Below, in pieces: positions 7,701-62,489 of a stretch of DNA of 64,000 nt (positions are counted from its first letter, which is position 1; every line of letters starts with the position of its first letter). The translations under genes and the position numbers were made by a program. Source of the DNA: Planctomycetia bacterium (GTDB lineage Bacteria > Planctomycetota > Phycisphaerae > Phycisphaerales > SM1A02); the NCBI GenBank assembly GCA_005776885.1, contig SXOD01000011.1, positions 1 to 64,000 of the forward strand, read 5' to 3'. Below the pieces are notes generated by a model. The model was not told where the DNA came from. It worked only from the letters and a program-made list of their open reading frames with translations, and ran no database searches.

Positions 7701-7728
7701 CGTGTTCCTCGCATCAGAATCGCTGACG

Positions 7729-7813
7729 TTCCATGAGATTCGATGAATATCCATGATTTTCGATGAATATCGAGTCACAATCCATGATTTTCGATCACGA
7801 TCGAACACAATCT
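7729..7813. repeat. AT-rich operator-like repeats upstream of the third crotonase gene
   Basis: Three copies of CCATGAnnTTCGATnA start at 7731, 7751 and 7782. A second motif, TCGAnnCACAATC or close, recurs at 7770 and 7801. The patch is clearly AT-richer than its surroundings and ends 38 bases before the ATG at 7851. Spaced direct repeats in a promoter region suggest a multi-site binding array for a transcription factor. Confidence 0.55.
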
Positions 7814-12673: not shown

Positions 12674-12746
12674 AACGTCCCACCCCGTTATCGGTGGAAA
12701 TGTGACCCTGGAGGGCACATTTCCACCGATAACGGGGGCGGACCTT
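12674..12746. repeat. 75-bp palindromic element, copy 1
   Basis: Hairpin at 12686-12734 (arms begin CGTTATCGGTGGAAATGTG), with outer arms AACGTCC at 12674-12680 and GGACCTT at 12740-12746. The left arm carries one extra-A variant (GTGACCCT). It lies 192 bases before the DUF559 gene. Confidence 0.9.
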
Positions 12747-12937
12747 CGCCTGCGCCGCGCCATACTGGAGCGGGACGCCCGTGACATCAGTTGCATGTGC
12801 TGGTCCAGCGGAGTCGCGGCGCGCGTCGGTGGACGAGTCGGCGAGAGGGCCGCGGGGAGGTTCACTCGGAGGCCTGGCGGCAAGCTCGATGGCAGGGCTC
12901 GACCTGTCAACGGCAAGCAGGGAACGCGGGGTGGTCG

Positions 12938-14071
12938 ATGAGTTCGGTGGCCACCGCGGCGGAAGTGATCGATCCCCATACGTCTGGGAAGGCGGCGGAA
13001 CGAGCCACCGCACGACCGGGCCGACGGGTCAATCGCACCGGCGCGAGTGCACGAGATTTGCGCCGCTTGCTCCTTCAACAGGCGGGCGCACTGACCTGGC
13101 AGCAGGCGGTCCAACTTGGCCTCTCTCGCAAGGCGATTCGACAGCGATTGGAGGAGGGTGAGTGGTACGAGTGCCACGGCGTCCTCGTCGTCCCGGCCGA
13201 CTCGCGCTGGGGAGTCTCCGAGGAGGTGTGGCGTGCCGATCCCGACCATCGATTGGAAAGGGGTGCCATGGCCGACTGGCGCGATGCGTGGTGCCTCTCG
13301 CTCCGGGGTGGTGCGAACTCGATGGTGTCGGGACCGCTGGCCATGCGGCTTGGAGGTTGGTCGATCGACGTCGGGCTCGACCCCCCGATGCAAGCGCTCC
13401 TGTCAACGCTCCACCGGCACTCGCCGATTCGCGGCGTGACGGTCATTCGACGGTGCACGATGCCTCGTGCGGCCATCGTGCGCCACTCCCGACTGGACTC
13501 CGACTGCCGTCCAGTCACGCCAGGCCTGCTGCGCGTGGCCTCGCCACTTGAAGGATTGCTGGATACGGTTTCCATCGCTCCACTGCAGTGCGCTTCCGGC
13601 GTCCTTGACCTGGCGCTGCAGCGCCGGCTCGTCACGCACTCGCAGCTGCGGCGAGCGTGTTTCGTTCGTGGCCGCAAGGCTCGCAGGGGACTGCGGCAAC
13701 TTCGATGGCTCACGCGTGCGGTGCAACGCGGTGGGCACTCCCCAGCCGAGCGCCTTCTCGCCACCATCCTGCGGCGCGCCAAGATCAGGGGTTGGGTGGT
13801 CGATCATCCGGTCCACGCTGCGGATGGGGCGGTGATCGCCCGGTTGGATCTTGCGTTCCCTGACCGGATGATCGCGATGGAGGTCGATGGATACTCGGCA
13901 CACTCATCCTTTCCGACCTTTGTCCGCGACCGCGAGCGGCAGAATCAACTGATCCTGGATGGCTGGACCGTCATTCGATTCACCTGGCCACAGCTGAAGG
14001 ACTCGCCCGACGTGGTGGTGCAGACCGTTCGGAGAGCGTTGGCCAACGTTGGCGCAGGCCGCCGGGACTGA
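12938..14071 (+). CDS. AbiEi-like winged-helix plus DUF559 (Vsr-like nuclease fold) protein
   Basis: A 377-residue protein. Around residues 40-80, GALTWQQAVQLGLSRKAIR followed by VLVVP resembles the N-terminal winged helix of AbiEi-type antitoxin proteins. The last 110 residues match DUF559: SPAERLLATILRRAKI, RLDLAFPDRMIAMEVDG, RDRERQNQLILDGW, VIRFTW. In Vsr-like nucleases the Asp and Glu of LDLAFPD...EVDG bind metal. Such genes occur alone in many genomes, sometimes near defence or mobile regions, and their role is not settled. It is flanked on both sides by copies 1 and 2 of the palindromic element. The start at ATG 12938 is chosen because upstream residues look non-coding. Confidence 0.75.
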   Translation: MSSVATAAEVIDPHTSGKAAERATARPGRRVNRTGASARDLRRLLLQQAGALTWQQAVQLGLSRKAIRQRLEEGEWYECHGVLVVPADSRWGVSEEVWRADPDHRLERGAMADWRDAWCLSLRGGANSMVSGPLAMRLGGWSIDVGLDPPMQALLSTLHRHSPIRGVTVIRRCTMPRAAIVRHSRLDSDCRPVTPGLLRVASPLEGLLDTVSIAPLQCASGVLDLALQRRLVTHSQLRRACFVRGRKARRGLRQLRWLTRAVQRGGHSPAERLLATILRRAKIRGWVVDHPVHAADGAVIARLDLAFPDRMIAMEVDGYSAHSSFPTFVRDRERQNQLILDGWTVIRFTWPQLKDSPDVVVQTVRRALANVGAGRRD

Positions 14072-14121
14072 GTCGGGGTGGTGGCGTGGCCGCTGGGCGG
14101 TCCGATCGGGATCTCGGGGCG

Positions 14122-14196
14122 AACGTCCGGGGGCGGTTATCGGTGGAAATGTGCCCTTGGAGGGCACATTTCCACCGATAACCGAGAGCGGACCTT
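14122..14196. repeat. 75-bp palindromic element, copy 2
   Basis: A perfect hairpin: two identical 23-bp arms with a TGG loop at 14135-14183. Outer arms are AACGTCC at 14122-14128 and GGACCTT at 14190-14196, each six bases from the hairpin. It begins 51 bases after the DUF559 stop and ends five bases before a TACAGT box. Confidence 0.95.
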
Positions 14197-28371: not shown

Positions 28372-29832
28372 ATGCGCCGCGTCTGCGTCCTCAACATCGT
28401 GGGGCTCTCCACGGGCCTCATCGGGGACGCGACACCAAAGTTGCGAGATTTCGCACGTGCATCAGGTGGCGTGCGAACGCTCCGGCCCCCGTTGCCCGCG
28501 GTGACGTGCTCGTCACAGGCCGCGATGCTCACGGGAAGGTCCGCGGGCGAGCACGGGATCGTCGGCAATGGCTGGTTCGATCGATCGCTCGGCGAGGTCC
28601 AGTTCTGGAAGCAGTCGAGCGGACTGGTGCAGTCGCGGCGCGTGTGGGATGCCGCGCGCGAGCGTGCCGGGTCGGCGAGTCGCACCGCCGACGGGTCTGC
28701 ATTCACCTGCGCGAACCTCTTCTGGTGGTACGCGATGGGTTCGACCGCCGACTTCACCGTCACGCCGCGCCCCCTCTACCCCGCGGACGGGCGCAAGCTC
28801 CCTGACGTGTGGACGCATCCGCCGCGACTGCGCGAGGAGCTGCAGGCGAAGCTGGGTCCCTTCCCGTTGTTTCGGTTCTGGGGCCCTGGCGCCGACATCG
28901 GAAGCACCGACTGGATCGCTGGAGCGGCGATGGAACTCATCGCACGCGAGCGACCAACGCTGTCGCTGGTGTACCTCCCGCATCTGGACTACGCGCTGCA
29001 GAAGCTGGGACCCGGGAATCGACACGTCCGCCAGGACCTTCGCGAGATCGACCGCGTCTTTGGCGTGCTGCTGTCCTTCCTCCAGAAGAATGACATCGAG
29101 CCCATCGTGGTGAGCGAGTACGGGATCGCGCCGGTCTCGCGCGCCGTGCTCCCCAATCGAATCCTGCGTGACGCGGGCTTGTTGAGCGTGCGCGACGAGA
29201 TGGGTCGCGAGGTACTTGATGTCTTCGAGAGTGCGGCATTCGCCGTCTGCGACCACCAGGTCGCCCATGTCGTGGTGCGGGACGGGTCGCGCGCCGGCGC
29301 CGTGCACAAGGCGCTGGAGGGGGTGGATGGAATCGACCAGATCCTCGATCGCGACGCGCAGCGAGCGGCAGGCATTGCACACGGGCGATCCGGCGACTTC
29401 GTGCTGGTGAGTGCCCGCGATGCGTGGTTCGCGTATCCGTGGTGGCACGATGACTCGCGCGCGCCCGACTACGCGAGGACCGTCGACATCCATCGCAAGC
29501 CTGGCTACGACCCGTGTGAACTGTTCTTTGACCCCGCGCTGTGGACACCGCGGCTGCGAGTCGCCCGGAAGTTGCTGATGCGCAGGCTTGGGTTCCGCAC
29601 GCTGCTGGACGTCATCCCGCTCGACCCTGGGTTGGTGCGCGGCTCGCATGGTCGAGTGGACAACGGCAAGGAGTACGAGCCGGTGCTCATCGTCGACGAC
29701 CCGATGGTGGAGGGTCCGCTGCGGATGGAGGGCGTCCACGATGTCATCCTCCGGCGACTCTTCCTGGACGAGGCCGACCCGCCTTGCGCACCACACCCAA
29801 TCATTCCGACGCGCGCGAGTCGTGGTTCATGA
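28372..29832 (+). CDS. eboF: EboF, alkaline-phosphatase-superfamily (nucleotide pyrophosphatase-like) protein
   Basis: A 486-residue member of the alkaline phosphatase / nucleotide pyrophosphatase-phosphodiesterase superfamily. The nucleophile region is PPLPAVTCSSQAAMLTGRSAGEHGIVGNGWFD, in which Thr precedes CSSQA. Metal-site segments VYLPHLDYALQKLG, VVSEYGIA and HGRSGDFVLV also occur. The ending EPVLIVDD and RMEGVHDVILRRLF is typical of the EboF group. It has no signal peptide, so it should act in the cytoplasm. The last four bases (ATGA) overlap the start of the DUF3299-like gene. Confidence 0.9.
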   Translation: MRRVCVLNIVGLSTGLIGDATPKLRDFARASGGVRTLRPPLPAVTCSSQAAMLTGRSAGEHGIVGNGWFDRSLGEVQFWKQSSGLVQSRRVWDAARERAGSASRTADGSAFTCANLFWWYAMGSTADFTVTPRPLYPADGRKLPDVWTHPPRLREELQAKLGPFPLFRFWGPGADIGSTDWIAGAAMELIARERPTLSLVYLPHLDYALQKLGPGNRHVRQDLREIDRVFGVLLSFLQKNDIEPIVVSEYGIAPVSRAVLPNRILRDAGLLSVRDEMGREVLDVFESAAFAVCDHQVAHVVVRDGSRAGAVHKALEGVDGIDQILDRDAQRAAGIAHGRSGDFVLVSARDAWFAYPWWHDDSRAPDYARTVDIHRKPGYDPCELFFDPALWTPRLRVARKLLMRRLGFRTLLDVIPLDPGLVRGSHGRVDNGKEYEPVLIVDDPMVEGPLRMEGVHDVILRRLFLDEADPPCAPHPIIPTRASRGS

Positions 29833-30473
29833 AGTGGTTCTGGCTGGCGCTGCTGGGGCTCGCGGCAGTGGGCGGGTACCTAGCGTGGAATGGATCTGGG
29901 GAATCGGACCCGGTGGCTGGGGAGGCTGGGCTGGCTCGAGAGGAAGGTCCCCTCCCGGTTATCGGTGAGAATGTGACCCTGGAGGGCACTTTCCCACCGA
30001 TAACCGAGTCGGACGTTGTGCGCTTGGATGATCGAACGATTCGAGTCGCTGGCCGCTTCGACCTCACGGGCAATGGCACGCAGAGAGATCCCTACCGAAT
30101 CTCCTGGGAGTACCTCCAGAGTGCGCAGGATGGGTGGAAGCCGAAAGCTGGGAAGGAGTCGCTCGCACGGCACATCCTCCTCCTGGACGGCGCGTGGATC
30201 AGCATCGACGGCTACTGGGCGCCCGGCATCGTCGTGGACGAGACGAAGGAAGTCGTCGTGCTGCTCAATCGCTGGGATGGCTGTTGCCTCGGCATCCCGC
30301 CAACTCCATTTGACTGCATCGAAGCCAAGCTCTCGGAGGCCGTGCGCATCGACAAGCAGCACGCTTTCCGCTACGGCACCGTGACGGGTCGATTGGACGT
30401 GTCGCCGTTCGCGTTTGGCGATGTCATCCTGGGCCTCTACCAACTCCAGGAGGCGCGCATCTCGTCGCAGTGA
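29829..30473 (+). CDS. Membrane-anchored DUF3299-like protein containing a translated palindromic element
   Basis: A 214-residue protein. Residues 3-20 are one membrane helix (FWLALLGLAAVGGYLAW), followed by a Gly/Glu linker. From about residue 85 it resembles DUF3299 proteins: ISWEYLQ, ILLLDGAWISIDGYWAPG, then the NRWDGCCLGIPPTPFDC segment, where family members also keep CC..PPP, and a final GRLDVSPF...GLYQLQEARI. Residues 43-59 (VIGENVTLEGTFPPIT and neighbours) are encoded entirely by palindromic copy 6, which is in frame. ATG 29829 overlaps the eboF stop by four bases, so expression is coupled to eboF. The exported domain may be a small metal-binding or redox module. Confidence 0.75.
   Translation: MKWFWLALLGLAAVGGYLAWNGSGESDPVAGEAGLAREEGPLPVIGENVTLEGTFPPITESDVVRLDDRTIRVAGRFDLTGNGTQRDPYRISWEYLQSAQDGWKPKAGKESLARHILLLDGAWISIDGYWAPGIVVDETKEVVVLLNRWDGCCLGIPPTPFDCIEAKLSEAVRIDKQHAFRYGTVTGRLDVSPFAFGDVILGLYQLQEARISSQ
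29944..30017. repeat. Palindromic element, copy 6, inside a coding region
   Basis: Hairpin at 29957-30005, outer arms AAGGTCC at 29944-29950 and GGACGTT at 30011-30017 (74 bp, one spacer shortened). Arms are mixed type in the orientation of copy 5. It lies wholly within the DUF3299-like gene and contributes 17 codons from the hairpin alone without a stop. Confidence 0.92.
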
Positions 30474-36325: not shown

Positions 36326-36400
36326 AAGTTCCCTCCCCGGTTATCGGTGGAAATGTGCCCTTCAAGGGCACATTTCCACCGATAACCGGGGTCGGACGTT
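36326..36400. repeat. 75-bp palindromic element, copy 8
   Basis: A near-perfect hairpin at 36339-36387 with stem extended to 24 bp (CCCTT and AAGGG) and a one-base loop. Outer arms are AAGTTCC at 36326-36332 and GGACGTT at 36394-36400. It lies between convergent genes, 56 bases after the dus stop. Confidence 0.93.
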
Positions 36401-36445
36401 GGTGTGCTCGCCGTCGGCGCTCCCTCACCCTCCATCGGCCCCAAC

Positions 36446-36481
36446 GAAAAGCCCCGCCGCAGGAGCGATCCTGCGACGGGA
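36446..36481 (-). terminator. Intrinsic terminator of the PepSY/dockerin gene
   Basis: On the minus strand, TCCCGTCGCAGGA pairs with TCCTGCGGCGGG (one mismatch) around a four-base loop, followed by GCTTTTCG. It lies 80 bases after the minus-strand stop at 36560, with palindromic copy 8 beyond it. Confidence 0.65.
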
Positions 36482-36559
36482 CTTGGTCGGCCGCACTGCC
36501 TCAGTCCAACCTGAGGAGAATGGATTGGACCTCGGTCAGCTGGCTAGCCGGTCAGACAA

Positions 36560-37732
36560 TCACCAGCTGCCGAGGACTTGGGCCAGGTCGCCGCCGTCGA
36601 TGACACCGCTGCCATCCAGGTCGTACCCTGGGTTGACCTGACCCCAGAGGGCGAGGAGTTCGGAGAGGTCGCTGCCGTCGACGGCGCCGTCGGCGTTGAA
36701 GTCGGCGGGATTCTCGTTGACCGGGGCCGCGAAGGACTGCTGCGCGGGGACGGAGGCGTCGATCCACATGTCCAGCTCAACCAGGTCCGCGGTGATGAGC
36801 TCGACCTTCCAGACCAGGTCGCCCTGCTCCACCTTGAGCTCAACCTCGTGGAGGCCGGCGGCGGGGAACGCCGCGTCTGCGCCACCAACGGCACAGGTGG
36901 CGACGCAGGTCATCGTGCCCAGGAGCGGGATGATCTGCGAGAGCTTGCTCGACTGCGACGAGCTGGGGGAATAGGTCGTCACACTGAGGATCGTGCCGTC
37001 AAGGCCGACATCGACCTCGAGGAGGGTCGAGCCCTTCGCGTCGGTGAAGGTGACCTCGATCCGGTCGGTGTCGCTGGAGCCGCTGCTGCCGCTGCTGGAG
37101 CCGGACTCGTCCTCTGCTTCCACCTCGATCGCCGTCCAGCCGTCGCCGGCGGACGCGGTCGCCGCAGCGATGGCCGCGGTGAATGAAGCCGCAGGGTAGG
37201 TGTCCTCCATGTCGTCGCCCTGGCCGTGATGCGGGACGATCCCGCCGGTCGCGGCGTCAACATAGATCTTGGAGAGGTCCCAGAACTCGACCTGGTACGA
37301 GAGGATGTTGTGCTCGATGTCCAGTTGTGTCTTCTGTGCAGCCGAGCCAGATCCCGCGGCGGTCGCAATGTCGATCGCCTCGGCGAAATCGATCTGAATC
37401 TCTTCCAAGCGTGCGAAGATCGCGGTGAGCGTGGCGATGTCCGAGGGGTCGACCGAGTCGACATCCACCAGGATCAGCGCGCCGGTGTCCATGTTGATCC
37501 GGGGATCCCAGTTGGCGGTGAGCGCCGCGGTGTACATGTCACCTTCGTAGACGAGCATGTTGTCGCGCTCGCGGATCTCAATCTGGATGAGCGTGGTGTC
37601 CGGCACGGCGGCTCGGCAGAGGGTGACGGCCTTCGCGAAGCCGATGTCGGCGGACGCTGTCGAGGCTGCGGTTGCGGCGAGGACGGTCGCGGCGATCGTG
37701 GTGGTTCGGAGCACAAATCTGGCTGCGTACAT
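36560..37732 (-). CDS. Secreted PepSY-like protein with dockerin-like EF-hands
   Basis: A 390-residue exported protein. The signal peptide is MYAARFVLRTTTIAATVLAA..ASTASA. Residues 30-200 contain two PepSY-like units (AKAVTLCRAAVPDTTLIQIEI, VYEGDMYT; then VEFWDLSKIYVDAATGGIV); PepSY domains often bind or inhibit peptidases or metals. A Ser/Gly linker and a beta domain follow. The C-terminus carries two EF-hand-like loops, DFNADGAVDGSDLSELLALWG and DLDGSGVIDGGDLAQVLGSW. It is divergent from the ECF sigma gene at 37896. A secreted subtilase in that operon makes an inhibitor or partner role conceivable. Confidence 0.75.
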   Translation of the reverse strand: MYAARFVLRTTTIAATVLAATAASTASADIGFAKAVTLCRAAVPDTTLIQIEIRERDNMLVYEGDMYTAALTANWDPRINMDTGALILVDVDSVDPSDIATLTAIFARLEEIQIDFAEAIDIATAAGSGSAAQKTQLDIEHNILSYQVEFWDLSKIYVDAATGGIVPHHGQGDDMEDTYPAASFTAAIAAATASAGDGWTAIEVEAEDESGSSSGSSGSSDTDRIEVTFTDAKGSTLLEVDVGLDGTILSVTTYSPSSSQSSKLSQIIPLLGTMTCVATCAVGGADAAFPAAGLHEVELKVEQGDLVWKVELITADLVELDMWIDASVPAQQSFAAPVNENPADFNADGAVDGSDLSELLALWGQVNPGYDLDGSGVIDGGDLAQVLGSW

Positions 37733-37860
37733 GGAGTTGCCTTTCAAATACATCGATCTCAAAAGATCTTGGAGTGACTTGCCGACCGAAGGGAGCTTGA
37801 CCGGCGGACCGATCGGCTGAAGGGAAAGTGCTGCCCTGCCGCGCTCAGATACAACTTGAC

Positions 37861-37888
37861 TTGATTCCGGGCCGGCGCGACTTACACT
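37861..37888 (+). promoter_or_regulatory. Promoter of the ECF sigma / CHAT operon
   Basis: TTGATT (37861-37866), a 16-base spacer, then TACACT (37883-37888), seven bases before the ATG. It resembles a housekeeping sigma-70-type promoter, with almost no leader. Confidence 0.5.
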
Positions 37889-37895
37889 CAGGTGC

Positions 37896-38513
37896 ATGAC
37901 CGCCGTTCCGCCACGCCGCGTGACGATGACCGATGACGAGGTCGAACTCGTCCATCGTTGTGCGGAAGGCGATGAGGTGGCTTGGCGATCGCTGGTGGAT
38001 CGATTTTCCCCGCTGGCGTGGTCGATGGTCCGGCGCGCAGGCCTCTCGGATCACTCGGCGGAGGACGTGGTGCAGGAAGCCTTCACCGCGGCATGGCAGG
38101 CGCTTCCCACGATGCGGGAGCCAGATCGATTCGACGCCTGGCTCTCCACTACCTGTCGCAGAATGGCTCAGCGCAGGCGCGGGCTTGACCGGCGCGACGG
38201 GGCCAGCCTCTCCCCGGAATCCGCCAACGCCATCGAATCGGGAGACGACCCAGCACACGCGCTTGAGCTGGACGAGGACCGGCTGCTCGTTCGGGGCGCC
38301 CTGGCCCAGCTGACGCACAAGTGCCAGCTCCTGCTGCGCGCACTGATGCAGTTGGCCGCGTCCAGTCGGCGTGAGGGCCACGCCGACTACGAGGCCGTCT
38401 CGCGCCTCACGGGCATGCCGACGGGTTCGATCGGACCGACCCGACAACGGTGCCTGGACGCCTTGGCCTCGAAATTGCTGCGATTCGGACTCCGTGTATC
38501 CAAACCCACCTAG
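37896..38513 (+). CDS. ECF-type RNA polymerase sigma factor
   Basis: A 205-residue sigma factor. Region 2 has WRSLVDRFSPLAWSMVRRAG and SAEDVVQEAFTAAWQALP. The linker is Asp/Glu rich. The region 4-like segment is YEAVSRLTGMPTGSIGPTRQRCLDAL, including a GSIGPTR turn typical of planctomycete ECF groups. It would direct RNA polymerase to a private set of promoters. It heads a four-gene operon with tight or overlapping junctions: an unknown protein, a TPR-CHAT protease and a secreted subtilase. No membrane anti-sigma factor is next to it. Confidence 0.88.
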   Translation: MTAVPPRRVTMTDDEVELVHRCAEGDEVAWRSLVDRFSPLAWSMVRRAGLSDHSAEDVVQEAFTAAWQALPTMREPDRFDAWLSTTCRRMAQRRRGLDRRDGASLSPESANAIESGDDPAHALELDEDRLLVRGALAQLTHKCQLLLRALMQLAASSRREGHADYEAVSRLTGMPTGSIGPTRQRCLDALASKLLRFGLRVSKPT

Positions 38514-38542
38514 CCGGCACTCTCTGGGCGCAAAGGCACCCC

Positions 38543-39154
38543 ATGACTGACTCCACACAGCTCCACGCCGACCTCCCAGAACCCGATTGGCTGGTCCAGC
38601 GCCTCAGCCAACACGGCGTGACTGTGGCGCGAGCGCACTCCATCGCGCTCGTCGCGAGCGAGCTGCTCGGAGACACGGTGCCCGCGACCCTCTTGGACCG
38701 GCTGAGGCAGATCCCGGCCGCGACGCGCACCGCTCCCCTGACATCGGCCCTTTCCGCCGTCGATGAGTGGCTGGCGAAGGCTCGAGAGTGGATCACGCGC
38801 GGGTGGACGGCCGAGTCTCCGGTGGCGGCGACGGTCGCGCTCCGAGGACATCCAAGTGCCGATCGATTCCGTGTCAAGGGCAACTGTGGGCTCCTTGGGC
38901 TCGATGTCGAGTGCGAGCGCTCCGCCGATGGTGCCGCATGGGACCTGACGGGGGCCATCACGTCGCCAGACGAGGCGCCCGCCGGACTGGTCATTCGATT
39001 CACCCACGATGATCACGCGGACTCGGCCGGGATCTCCTCGACGATCGACGACTTGGCCATGTTTCGCGCTCGCCTCCCCGCGGGCCAGTATTCCATCTCC
39101 ATTGGCTCGCCTGCGCAGGATGCGGTACCCCTGGCCAGTCTGAGCCTCCCGTGA
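38543..39154 (+). CDS. Unknown protein in the ECF-CHAT operon (candidate sigma regulator or protease substrate)
   Basis: A 203-residue soluble protein with no membrane helix or signal peptide and no family I recognise. Residues 1-90 are predicted helical (DWLVQRLSQHGVTVARAHSI, SALSAVDEWLAKAREWI). Residues 95-203 look beta-rich (VALRGHPSADRFRVKG, LAMFRARLPAGQYSISIG). It starts 29 bases after the sigma gene, with AAAGG upstream, and its stop overlaps the GTG start of the CHAT gene (GTGA). Its place between a sigma factor and a TPR-CHAT protease makes it a candidate sigma inhibitor or cleavage target. This is inference from context only. Confidence 0.7.
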   Translation: MTDSTQLHADLPEPDWLVQRLSQHGVTVARAHSIALVASELLGDTVPATLLDRLRQIPAATRTAPLTSALSAVDEWLAKAREWITRGWTAESPVAATVALRGHPSADRFRVKGNCGLLGLDVECERSADGAAWDLTGAITSPDEAPAGLVIRFTHDDHADSAGISSTIDDLAMFRARLPAGQYSISIGSPAQDAVPLASLSLP

Positions 39155-41970
39155 CGACGCCCGCCCCACACGCACACCAACTCCTTGCAGCGCGACTCCA
39201 CGCAGCGCAGGGTGCGGTTGCGCACGCTCCATCGGAGGCTGCGGCGACGCTCGCAGAGATCACGCGCGACGCCGTCCAGGCCGGTGACACGGCGATCGCT
39301 GCCACATCGGCTCGCCTGCGCGCACGAGCCCTGGCCTACCTCGGCGACTACGACGCCAGCATTGTTGCGGCACGGGAATGCGGCTCGATGGCCAGCGCTG
39401 CGGGCCTCGCCGAGGAATGTGCCCGGGCGCGACTGGCCGCGATGCATGCCCTGGTGGAGTCCGGACGATTTGATGAAGCCGAGTCCGAGGGCCTTCGAGC
39501 CCGCGAGCTGCTCGTCTCCCTCGACCGCAGCGACCTCGTGGCGAGGGCGGAGATCAACCTGGGCATCCTGCACCAACGGCAGGGGCGACTGGACGAGGCT
39601 CGCACGCGGTTTGACGCCGCGGCCCCGGCCCTGGCATCCGAACCATTGATCCTGGCCCAGCTCCAGAACAATCGCGCAGAAGTCCTGCTGCGACTCTACG
39701 ACTTCGAGGGCGCTGGCCACGACTTTGCGGCCTCGCACCTGGCGAACATGGCCGCCGGTGCCTCCGTCAACGCCTCCATTGCACTTGGCAACCTCGCCGA
39801 CCTCGAGGCCCGACGCGGCGAATGCGGTGCGGCACTCCGGTCCTTCGAGTCGGCCATCGCGACACTCGCGGGGACGTCAAGTGACACCCACGTCCTTCGC
39901 CTGCGCGCCGAACGGGCCGAGGTCATGGACTCTGTCGGCCTGCACAATGCGGCCCGGGTGGAGCTCGCGTCGGTGCTGGAATCACTGGAGCGTCACGGGC
40001 TTCGACGCGAAGCCGCACGCGCCCGCGTGGCGCTGGGAAGGTCGTGGCAGCACTCGGGTTCGCGCGCCAGTGCCCAGACGCACCTGCTGGCTGCGCAAGC
40101 GCAGTTCGCGGGACTGGGCGATGATCTCGAGGCGGCTCGAGTCACCGTGGACCTTGCCGACCTCGCGTTGGAGGCTGGTGAATGGGCACTCGCTGAGTCA
40201 CTGGCACGAACAGCGCTCGCCGTGGCCGGACTCGGTCGTGTCGACCGATCTCGCGCCAATCTCCTGCTCTCTGCCGCCGCCATCCAGCGCGGCGCCTGGG
40301 ATGAGTCTCTTGCCCAGGCCGACCTCGCTCGCTCGACCGCCGGCGATGTGGCTCCCTTGGTGGCCGCCGCTGACCTGTTGGGAGCGCGCGCATCCCGCGG
40401 TTCGGGCAAGATCGACCAGGCGATGGCCCTGGCGCGCCGTGCGGCCGCCTCGCTGGATCGCCTCCGCACGGACCTGCCCGCTCGCCGATTCCGCCTGGCG
40501 GACAGCTCCGCGACCGACGCGCACCGACTGGTGGCATCGATCGTGCTTGCGCAGCCGCGGCCAGATGCGCTCCTCCTCGCGTGCGCCATGGATGCATCGG
40601 AAGGGACGCGCCACGATGAGGAGCGGGCCCTGGCGATCGAGTCGCTCTCGAGCGGCACCGACGCGCCGACCAACGCGGGGGCCGAGGCGGTGGCCGACGC
40701 GGCGACCGATGCACTCGTGTCACGCCGCGACGGCCTGCTCGCCGACCTCAACGCGATCTACTCGATGGTTGCCGACTCACGCGCGTCGGACTCGCGCCAG
40801 AACTCCTGGCGGCAGCGAGTGGCCACCATCGAGTCTTCGCTGGATGCCATCGAGGCCGACTTGGAGACTCGAGGATTCCAGGCCACCCACGTCGCCCCAC
40901 CCGACGCCGCACCGGCGCTGGAGTCGATGCCGACGGACACGCGCATCATTCGATTCGGCGTGGTCGATCGTTCACTCGTCGCGGCCGTCGTCACCAGGGA
41001 CTCTCCCAGAGTGGTCACGTTGTGCCCCGCGGCCGAAGTGGATCGACTCGTTCGTGCCCTGCTGTTCCACATGCGCGGCGCCGTCGCGTCACCGGACGAA
41101 GCGCCTGTGGCCGACGGCACGGTGCGCCGAATCATTGGCGCGATTGAGGCGCTCGCCCTCACGCCCGTCCTCGAAGTGGGCGGAGGCGACTGCTTCATTG
41201 TTCCGTCGGGACCGCTCTCGCTGCTCCCGCCGCTGGCGTGCGAGTCCATCACTCGGCGTGTCGGGGAGATGCACCTTGTTCCCTCGCTGCGCGATGCACT
41301 CCGCGCCGCGACGAGGCAGGAGCAGCAGGAGCAGGCGGCGCAACACCCACACTCCGGTGCCATTCGCGAACCATCCACGATGAGGGTCTTGGTGGTGGAT
41401 CATGACGATGGCACGCTCCCCGGCGCCACCGGCGAGTGCGATGCCATCGCCAGCTCGTGGTCCCTCGTCGGCGCATCGGTGGATCGACTGAGCGGTTCCC
41501 AGGCGACCGTCTCCAGCGTGATCGGATCGTGCCGACGCGCCGATGTCGTGCACCTTGCATGCCACGGCTGGTTCAGCGGATCCTTGGAAGGGGCCAGCGG
41601 GCTCCGACTCTCTGATGGGTGGCTCACCCGTCAACTGGTCCGCCGATGTCGACTCCAGGCACGGGTCGTCGTCCTCTCCGGATGCGAGACTGGCCCCGGG
41701 CGCGCGCACGATGGGCTTGACAACTCGCCGCCTTCGGGCCTCTTTGCCTCGTTCTTGGCGGCCGGTGCCGGCTCCGTCGTGTCGACGCTGTGGCCCGTCC
41801 GCGACGATATTTGTGCCTTCAGCATGGACTTGCTGCACCGCATGTGGCAGAATGGATCAGCTGTTTCGCTGGCTGGCTCACTCGCACAAGTCGCCGACGC
41901 AGTGCGTGATCGCTCGCCACACCCCTGTCACTGGGCTCCGCTCACGTTGTTCGAGAGAGGTTCGACATGA
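39151..41970 (+). CDS. TPR-CHAT protein (caspase-like protease)
   Basis: A 939-residue cytoplasmic protein. Residues 1 to about 430 are tetratricopeptide-like helical repeats (for example AGLAEECARARLAAMHALVESG and GRVDRSRANLLLSAAAIQRG). A helical linker follows. The C-terminal 300 residues are a CHAT domain: VLVVDHDDG, then the catalytic His805 in VVHLACHGWFSG and Cys845 in VVLSGCETGPG, followed by LFASFLAAGAGSVVSTLWPV. CHAT domains are caspase/separase-related cysteine proteases switched on through their TPR part. GTG 39151 overlaps the preceding stop and its own stop overlaps the subtilase start (ATGA), so all three are translationally coupled. Confidence 0.9.
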   Translation: MTTPAPHAHQLLAARLHAAQGAVAHAPSEAAATLAEITRDAVQAGDTAIAATSARLRARALAYLGDYDASIVAARECGSMASAAGLAEECARARLAAMHALVESGRFDEAESEGLRARELLVSLDRSDLVARAEINLGILHQRQGRLDEARTRFDAAAPALASEPLILAQLQNNRAEVLLRLYDFEGAGHDFAASHLANMAAGASVNASIALGNLADLEARRGECGAALRSFESAIATLAGTSSDTHVLRLRAERAEVMDSVGLHNAARVELASVLESLERHGLRREAARARVALGRSWQHSGSRASAQTHLLAAQAQFAGLGDDLEAARVTVDLADLALEAGEWALAESLARTALAVAGLGRVDRSRANLLLSAAAIQRGAWDESLAQADLARSTAGDVAPLVAAADLLGARASRGSGKIDQAMALARRAAASLDRLRTDLPARRFRLADSSATDAHRLVASIVLAQPRPDALLLACAMDASEGTRHDEERALAIESLSSGTDAPTNAGAEAVADAATDALVSRRDGLLADLNAIYSMVADSRASDSRQNSWRQRVATIESSLDAIEADLETRGFQATHVAPPDAAPALESMPTDTRIIRFGVVDRSLVAAVVTRDSPRVVTLCPAAEVDRLVRALLFHMRGAVASPDEAPVADGTVRRIIGAIEALALTPVLEVGGGDCFIVPSGPLSLLPPLACESITRRVGEMHLVPSLRDALRAATRQEQQEQAAQHPHSGAIREPSTMRVLVVDHDDGTLPGATGECDAIASSWSLVGASVDRLSGSQATVSSVIGSCRRADVVHLACHGWFSGSLEGASGLRLSDGWLTRQLVRRCRLQARVVVLSGCETGPGRAHDGLDNSPPSGLFASFLAAGAGSVVSTLWPVRDDICAFSMDLLHRMWQNGSAVSLAGSLAQVADAVRDRSPHPCHWAPLTLFERGST

Positions 41971-43457
41971 CCCGATCGATTCGAATGTCGGTGCTGCAAC
42001 TGCTGTCCCTCGCCGCTTGGTCGATGTCAGCGTTTGGGCAGGCCGCGGACCACTGCTCCCAACCAAGTGCCGCCATCGCCGACCGCGTCCACCTGGCGCA
42101 CGACGACACGGTATCCGCGTCGCAGGCGATTGCGGCGGTCCAGTCGGCGGCGCCGGGGCTCGTGCTCACGCCGTTGGACTCCATTCCCGGACGCAACATC
42201 CTGCTTCTCTCCGCATCGTGGCCCAATGGCTGGACCGTGGAACAGGCGTCAGCGTGGATGGAATCGGTCGCCACGCTGGGACTGCCTGGTGTCGTGTGGG
42301 GGGAGATCGAGTACGCCGGCCGTGTCCCCGAAGGTGGGACTGGCAGCATCTTTGTGGACGAAGGCCCTGACCTCTCCATCATTCCGGAGCAGTACGCGTG
42401 GCAGACGCTGGGCATCGACCCTGCACAGCAGCTTGCCTCAGGCGCGTCAACCGTGGCCGTCTTGGACACGGGGATCGACCCGCTGCATCCGCTCCTCGTG
42501 GGTCGGCTGGCCATTGGTGGATGGGACTTTGTGGCACGGTCAGGTGACACGACCGATCGGCCTGATGGCGCTGACTCTGATAGTGATGGAGTCGCCAATG
42601 AATTGGTGGGACACGGGACGTTTGTCGCGTCGCTCATCGCCAGCGCGGCGCCTGGTGCACGGATCCTTCCCGTGCGGGTCTTGGATGCCGATGGCGGCGG
42701 GAGCCTGTGGAACCTCGCTCGCGGACTCTTCCACGCCATCGACCGCGGCGTCGAGGTCATCAATGTAAGCATCACCTCGACCTACAGCTCTGAGGCGGTG
42801 GAACTGGCCTTGGACGAGGCTGCGATGCATGGCATCACGGTGGTCGCCAGTGCCGGCAACTGTGATTCCGACACTCGCATGTTTCCCGCAGCAAAGTCGG
42901 GCGTCCTCGCCGTCGCGGCCACCGACCACCTCAATCACCGCGCCGTGTTCTCCAGCTATGGCGACTGGGTCTCGCTGGCCGCGCCAGGTGCCTCAGTGCT
43001 TGACTCGAACGGAACCCCCGCCAACACCATTCTCGGCGCAGGGAGGTCGTCTACAGACACGCCGGGAGTCGTCGCGGCATCGGGCACCAGTTTTGCGGCA
43101 CCCCTTGTCGCCGCCGCGGCCGCGATGGTTCGTGCGCAGCATCCCGAGTGGCCAGCTGACGACACGACCGCAGAGGCCATATCCGACCTGCTCCTCGACA
43201 CGGCGCAGTCGCTCGTGCCTTCCGATCCGCAGTGGGCGCCGTGGCTTGGGGCCGGGCTCCTTGATGTGTCGGCGGCCGTCGCATCGGGGCCGGCCCAGCC
43301 TCGTGTGGGTGACCTTGATGGCGACGGTGTCGTTGGGGCGTCTGACCTCGCGGCCGTTCTCGGCGCCTGGGGACTGGTGCACACCAGCGCAGACATCGAC
43401 GGCGACGGAATCGTGTCGGCCAGCGACCTCGCGGCAGTGCTTGGGAACTGGGGCTGA
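41967..43457 (+). CDS. Secreted subtilisin-like serine protease (S8) with dockerin-like tail
   Basis: A 496-residue exported protease. The signal peptide is within MTRSIRMSVLQLLSLAAWSM. An inhibitor-like prodomain spans roughly residues 30-120. The catalytic domain has Asp167 (VAVLDTGIDPLHP), His216 (ELVGHGTFVASLI), oxyanion Asn298 (VVASAGN) and Ser375 (VAASGTSFAAPLV). The C-terminus carries two EF-hand loops (DLDGDGVVGASDLAAVLGAW and DIDGDGIVSASDLAAVLG). The start overlaps the CHAT stop codon, so it is the fourth gene of the ECF operon. This protease should act outside the cytoplasm, whereas the CHAT protease is inside. The stop lies immediately before palindromic copy 9. Confidence 0.92.
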   Translation: MTRSIRMSVLQLLSLAAWSMSAFGQAADHCSQPSAAIADRVHLAHDDTVSASQAIAAVQSAAPGLVLTPLDSIPGRNILLLSASWPNGWTVEQASAWMESVATLGLPGVVWGEIEYAGRVPEGGTGSIFVDEGPDLSIIPEQYAWQTLGIDPAQQLASGASTVAVLDTGIDPLHPLLVGRLAIGGWDFVARSGDTTDRPDGADSDSDGVANELVGHGTFVASLIASAAPGARILPVRVLDADGGGSLWNLARGLFHAIDRGVEVINVSITSTYSSEAVELALDEAAMHGITVVASAGNCDSDTRMFPAAKSGVLAVAATDHLNHRAVFSSYGDWVSLAAPGASVLDSNGTPANTILGAGRSSTDTPGVVAASGTSFAAPLVAAAAAMVRAQHPEWPADDTTAEAISDLLLDTAQSLVPSDPQWAPWLGAGLLDVSAAVASGPAQPRVGDLDGDGVVGASDLAAVLGAWGLVHTSADIDGDGIVSASDLAAVLGNWG

Positions 43458-43523
43458 TCCCGGTTATCGGTGGAAATGTGCCCTTGGAGGGCACATTTCC
43501 ACCGATAACCGCCAGGGGACGTT
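43456..43523. repeat. Palindromic element, copy 9 (left outer arm missing)
   Basis: A perfect hairpin at 43462-43510 identical to copy 2, right outer arm GGACGTT at 43517-43523. The left outer arm is absent: the subtilase stop codon (43455-43457) lies where it would be. Between convergent genes. Confidence 0.93.
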
Positions 43524-44793: not shown

Positions 44794-44840
44794 ATCGACC
44801 CGCTCGGCTGAGTCGGCTGAGTCGGCTGGGCTACCCCCGG

Positions 44841-44888
44841 TGGGCTGATCAGAATCGACCAAAAAAACGTCGAATCCGATCAATCCAA
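44841..44888. repeat. 48-bp repeat, copy A
   Basis: Identical over 48 bases to 47172-47219. It contains an imperfect inverted repeat, GATCAGAATCGAC and GTCGAATCCGATC, around CAAAAAAAC. Here it sits between divergent atpC and the secreted-protein gene. The two copies bracket the second ECF module. Confidence 0.85.
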
Positions 44889-47159: not shown

Positions 47160-47171
47160 ACTCTGGTCCGT

Positions 47172-47219
47172 TGGGCTGATCAGAATCGACCAAAAAAACG
47201 TCGAATCCGATCAATCCAA
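47172..47219. repeat. 48-bp repeat, copy B
   Basis: An exact copy of 44841-44888. Here it lies between convergent genes and covers the stop codon of the CYTH gene (47211-47213). Confidence 0.85.
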
Positions 47220-62374: not shown

Positions 62375-62381
62375 CCATCCC

Positions 62382-62489
62382 ATGGCAAAGAAGAAGGCTG
62401 CGAAGAAGGCCGCTAAGAAGCCGGCCAAGAAGGCTGCGAAGAAGACCGCGAAGAAGACTGCGAAGAAGAAGACCGCGAAGAAGAAGTAG
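62382..62489 (+). CDS. Lysine/alanine-rich histone H1-like peptide (35 residues)
   Basis: A 35-residue protein made only of Met, Ala, Lys, Thr and one Pro, built from AKKxAKK-type repeats (starts MAKKKAAKKAAKKPAKK, ends TAKKK). About 60 percent of residues are lysine. This is the composition of the C-terminal tail of histone H1 and of bacterial H1-like or AlgP-like proteins that bind DNA or RNA by charge. It is a free-standing gene with a strong ribosome-binding site and its own terminator, so it is very likely expressed. Expansion or contraction of the repeat would keep the frame. Likely nucleoid- or RNA-associated; not proven. Confidence 0.8.
   Translation: MAKKKAAKKAAKKPAKKAAKKTAKKTAKKKTAKKK

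Follow-up and report, generated by a model that had tools for sequence, protein, structure and literature searches.

Copies of a short palindromic repeat in this planctomycete genome (G000) and in that of its sister species (G002) share sites but not sequences, the stems having been re-paired almost everywhere, and one of the shared sites lies in coding DNA, where the hairpin is read in frame within a membrane protein gene. On the evidence of sequence comparison, this combination of shared sites with species-specific sequence points to either concerted turnover of the family or repeated reinsertion, and it is a stronger point than the coding insertion itself. Coordinates given below are, unless a contig is named, those of the window, i.e., the whole 64,000-nt stretch of DNA that was analyzed. 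G002 shows synteny with the window, at DNA identities of roughly 70 to 88% (mostly near 80%), and G001 is a third member of the genus. G000 is 85% complete; both G000 and G002 are draft genomes, and G002 matches a MAG. Genic and intergenic positions were called with a home-made gene caller, so the genic counts are approximate.

The coding copy lies, as the original prediction had it, in an open frame that overlaps the upstream gene by four bases (ATGA, 29829-29832). The upstream gene is a type I phosphodiesterase by Pfam family and presumably eboF, the name that it had been given earlier. Translation confirmed that the hairpin is in frame, occupying codons 43 to 59 (29955-30005) and giving the peptide PVIGENVTLEGTFPPIT, and both outer arms are still recognizable as AAGGTCC and GGACGTT (Table 1). 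The stem of this copy has several mismatches, and its right spacer is one base short.

Table 1. Coordinates, strands and supporting analyses of the repeat copies, the host gene and its parts
Feature	Position	Strand	Basis
Family copy, intergenic	12685..12735	-	Pattern and genome search
Family copy, intergenic	14134..14184	-	Pattern and genome search
Family copy, intergenic; own hairpin here in sister genome	21914..21964	-	Genome search, G002 comparison
Family copy, intergenic; hairpin absent in sister genome	23208..23258	+	G002 comparison
Family copy, intergenic; hairpin absent in sister genome	28295..28345	+	G002 comparison
Gene for 214-aa membrane-anchored DUF3299-like protein; ATG start overlaps upstream stop	29829..30473	+	
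Membrane helix at the N terminus (residues 2-21), conserved among homologues	29832..29891	+	Homologues, structure model
Palindromic element, orientation A, 74 nt (consensus 75 nt)	29944..30017	+	Pattern, alignment
Left outer motif AAGGTCC	29944..29950	+	Alignment
51-nt hairpin	29956..30006	+	Translation, RNA folding
Right outer motif GGACGTT, after a spacer of 4 nt (usually 5)	30011..30017	+	Alignment
Folded DUF3299-like domain, about residues 63-214	30015..30470	+	Structure model, fold match
Family copy, intergenic; hairpin absent in sister genome	35021..35071	-	G002 comparison
Family copy, intergenic; left end of 7-kb segment missing from sister genome	36338..36388	+	Synteny
Family copy, intergenic; right end of 7-kb segment begun at 36338	43461..43511	+	Synteny

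As regards the description of the product as DUF3299-like, the best PDB match of the predicted fold was the DUF3299 protein 4hsp (E 1.1e-5, TM 0.53 by target), whereas the score against Pfam PF11736 (DUF3299) was 14.9 bits, below the cut-off of 22. The structure model, made from 27 sequences with a mean pLDDT of 85.5, comprises a helix at residues 2 to 21 and a domain from residue 63, and residues from about 22 to about 60 are predicted to be disordered (pLDDT blocks of 54 to 61). The hairpin would thus be translated into a predicted disordered linker between the membrane helix and the folded domain, where it had been placed from the outset. In the homologues the linker that follows the helix is hypervariable, differing in both length and composition.

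Protein matches were found in 46 of the 101 genomes (G000 included), with one clear orthologue, that of G002, at 74% identity. The match in G001 is a more distant homologue without the neighbor gene. The site is carried by just two orthologues of the gene. It had been predicted that some orthologues would lack the insert and have contiguous flanking residues. The G002 orthologue is not such an empty allele, as it has a hairpin of its own, with a different sequence (TGTTGGTG-N27-CACCAACA), at the same codons; its linker differs from that of G000 by indels of 15, 9 and 9 nt, and the two hairpin peptides have the residues GE and FPP in common. A covariance model detected no family hairpin at the 28 other homologue loci (two chance-level matches at homologue loci both fell outside genes), but because the outgroup linkers are unalignable, a clean empty allele whose flanks are contiguous is not demonstrable. 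In the comparison with G002, dN/dS was about 0.34 in the helix (pN 0.18, pS 0.41), about 1 in the first part of the linker (pN 0.52, pS 0.53), 0.62 in the hairpin (pN 0.35, pS 0.48; resting on 18 codons) and 0.08 in the domain (pN 0.07, pS 0.56). Tolerance of the insert in a hypervariable linker under weak constraint would explain why the hairpin has been retained. The idea of an exaptation as a linker accordingly survives insofar as the repeat is read in frame within the linker, but the weak constraint and the hypervariability of the linker do not bear out a selected use.

A genome-wide pattern search of G000 found 46 intact copies, every one with a 43-nt core spacing, and 0 matches to a reversed control pattern; the number of copies and their fixed geometry rule out a chance palindrome. 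Nine of the copies are in the window. Aligned and oriented, they give a 75-nt consensus, AAGGTCC-N5-CGG-TTATCGGTG...CACCGATAACCG-N5-GGACGTT, with a hairpin of 24 stem pairs and a 3-nt loop, and they occur in mixed orientation. GACG (the reverse complement of CGTC) is the majority sequence at the right end (41, 42, 40 and 34 of 46 in the successive columns), and the left end is AAGGTCC. In an alignment of the 46 G000 copies with eight from G002 (the hflX row discussed below among the eight), 18 of the 24 stem pairs showed changes on both sides, a number reached by 0 of 500 shuffles. Our gene caller placed 22 copies between unidirectional genes, 18 between convergent and three between divergent genes, two at stretch ends and exactly one wholly within a gene. 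This matches the placement of REP-like repeats near 3' ends, in unidirectional or convergent gaps; in the unidirectional gaps, 15 of 22 copies are closer to the stop than to the start, a difference that is not significant (P 0.07). In 37 of the 46 copies on one strand, and in 39 on the other, two of the three frames have no stop (one frame in the remainder), much as had been read from the coding hairpin, but a general tolerance of insertion into genes is not borne out, with a single genic copy among 46.

The distribution of the family was narrow. Among the 98 genomes of the 101 that lie outside the genus, the covariance model under strict filters gave nothing at an E value of 0.01 or better; weak matches in three of them had E values of 0.06 to 0.08, and the few hairpins in G001 are weak and different. 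As part of the explanation that we favor, the family is probably limited to the genus, akin to REPs and to Rickettsia palindromic elements (RPEs), and would normally lie just after the 3' ends of genes. A search for Y1 transposases (PF01797) found 0 in five genomes (G000 to G003 and G047), with the control matched in 6 of 14. An intrinsic terminator was considered and rejected, the 3' flank being ACCG-N5-GGACGTT without a T run, and no Rfam family reached its threshold in the window (the one weak match, to mir-629 at E 0.57, is irrelevant). A literature search with a few terms, covering open-licence papers, returned no report of this palindrome family.

We examined 20 hairpin loci in G002. Fourteen are in the same gap or at the same site as a G000 copy, five lack a hairpin in G000 (the hflX locus, L113, L114, L115 and L117, with L114 placed in G000 only weakly), and one (L090) is unplaced. 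The coincidence of 14 of the 19 placed loci has a P value of about 4e-16, calculated with a rough per-gap rate and from G000 stretches that had been picked around G000 copies, which biases G002 copies toward being placed near them. In a block fetched for synteny alone, all three G002 copies coincide with G000 copies, and the P value by chance for the two intergenic ones is about 0.03. Several sites, including the C14:59069 and the 12689/14138 pairs, are shared at the level of the gap but not of the individual base. The G002 hairpins at shared sites are mostly of a TTGGTG type, and two others (L085) are decayed hairpins related to the G000 type. A tree of the 46 G000 copies and 13 G002 copies (the latter a set without L091, L112, L114 and L118, which are of other length, the two decayed copies and the hflX copy) consisted of one clade per species. 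Identity was 0.53 to 0.67 in 15 paired comparisons and 0.61 at the between-species level, such that pairing by site brings no gain in similarity over unpaired copies from the two species; within G000 it was 0.90, and within G002 0.73. Since the copies group by species and not by site, and since the stems have changed on both sides, the sites are shared while the sequence is species specific. Several G000 copies (e.g., 28299, 23212 and 104995) have no hairpin in G002, so ancestry need not be assumed for many of the G000 copies, and the G000 family has probably also expanded. When target-site duplications, as left by MITEs, were looked for, the junctions of the hairpin-free G002 sites did not align to the base.

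The second hairpin found inside a G002 gene, besides that at the orthologous linker site, is in a gene that we take from its translation to be hflX. This coding stretch (L089 6327-6377; C34:62327-62377) scored 51 bits against the covariance model. G002 differs here from G000 and G001, which have the ordinary sequence and resemble each other more, and the length is unchanged; the presence of a hairpin without a change in length suggests overwriting rather than insertion. Thus, G002 hflX may have been overwritten by a family-like hairpin, a suggestion from one case that could also be a chance coding hairpin.

We think it reasonably probable that a repeat already present, and harmless, in a tolerant linker before the species split has since been turned over in concert with its family. 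One copy would have landed in the linker-coding part of the gene before G000 and G002 separated, and it could have stayed there, since translation runs through the hairpin without meeting a stop and almost any peptide is acceptable in the linker. The family as a whole would then have turned over, each species acquiring its own stem sequence at the shared sites with pairing kept, and the coding copy and its peptide would have changed along with it; ectopic conversion or template switching, not reinsertion, is the presumed route. The main rival, which we judge unlikely, is independent insertion at hot spots: a mobile palindrome with a strong target preference would have entered the same places in both species, the gene included, each species with its own variant. 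The monophyly of the copies by species with no orthologue signal is what this rival expects, as are the G000 sites that are hairpin free in G002 and the preference for convergent and downstream gaps, and PMC3733652 describes different REPs at about the same recB site in two Xanthomonas species. Yet the hot spots would have to be very precise for 14 of 19 placed G002 loci to coincide, no common target motif was seen and the hflX case shows no change in length.

Selection on the coding hairpin itself, acting on the RNA or on the peptide (for example through ribosome pausing during helix insertion or through linker length), would be a true exaptation, and this we consider improbable. It would account for the fact that in both species the same codons can fold into a hairpin (-31.7 kcal/mol, z -7.3, for the 51-nt hairpin of G000 and -18.2 kcal/mol for that of G002, with 0 of 200 shuffles as good in each case) and for the common residues GE and FPP. 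Both coding copies, however, fold less stably than the two intergenic ones with which they were compared (-44.8 and -44.5), the constraint on the hairpin region is weak, and the 28 other homologue loci have freely variable linkers and no family hairpin. It is very improbable indeed that the repeat is untranslated and that the true start lies downstream of it; a GTG at codon 64 exists and nothing further speaks for such a start, whereas an N-terminal M-K/R-x-x-W motif followed by the membrane helix is common to nearly all of 26 homologues, the start codon lies in the 4-nt overlap with the upstream gene and dN/dS in the helix is low. Concerted turnover of a repeat that predates the split thus remains our preferred reading. 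Its broadest form, that dispersed palindromes of this genus hold their positions while ectopic conversion or templated repair recasts the whole set in a sequence peculiar to each species, even in coding DNA and without a change in length, with the linker and even the conserved gene hflX of G002 following a genome-wide “dialect,” is one that we put forward only tentatively.

In-frame palindromes and gene conversion of REPs are known ideas, and the linker insert alone is a further example; least expected is a rewriting, particular to each species, at sites that the two have in common, including a coding one. RPEs, which are about 150 bp long, are likewise dispersed palindromes that occur in frame inside genes and add a short peptide; the element described here, at 75 nt, is likened to them by description. 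According to PMC10969869, of the RPEs originally described in Rickettsia conorii, close to half are in ORFs; such frequent in-frame presence in unrelated ORFs is not seen here (1 of 46 copies). REPs are described in PMC3733652 as short palindromes by the 3' ends of unidirectional and convergent genes with occasional intragenic copies, and our family resembles them in both respects. The same paper presents CGTC-type REPs without a transposase; most of our copies have CGTC in one terminal motif, but the stem of that superfamily is 8 to 9 bp and its loop 4 to 5 nt, in contrast to 24 bp and 3 nt here. The GTAG superfamily with its RAYT differs in that the present family has no GTAG tag and the five genomes have no Y1 transposase. 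Evolution of REPs by gene conversion was reportedly proposed by Higgins et al. in 1988, a paper cited in PMC3116915. Template switching can create and repair hairpins, as stated in PMC8794818. By analogy, conversion or template-switch repair would homogenize dispersed hairpins or keep their stems paired. If concerted rewriting is true, the two species offer a natural setting in which conversion or template switching among short dispersed hairpins can be tested, and a process long proposed for REPs can reach protein sequence.

The copies are clustered, with nine in 31 kb of C3 (12689-43507, inside the window) and five in 15 kb of C14 (44360-59111), and many G000 contigs have none. Two same-orientation copies bound a 7-kb segment (36338-43511; genes for PepSY, a sigma factor, CHAT/TPR and a subtilase) that is not in G002, and two others flank a nuclease-like gene (12685-14184; MTES_1575/DUF559, below the cut-off) where the matching gap in G002 is shorter and has one hairpin. 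Integron-like cassettes were considered because some copies flank such G000-only segments and were dropped in view of the mixed orientations within clusters. A 2.3-kb segment missing from G002 is flanked by a different direct repeat of 52 nt (44837-44888 and 47168-47219; 98% identical). Elsewhere in the window, imperfect 10-nt direct repeats form a run at 7719-7804, and a 12-nt tandem repeat at 62379-62489 encodes a lysine/alanine-rich stretch that resembles a histone-like tail.
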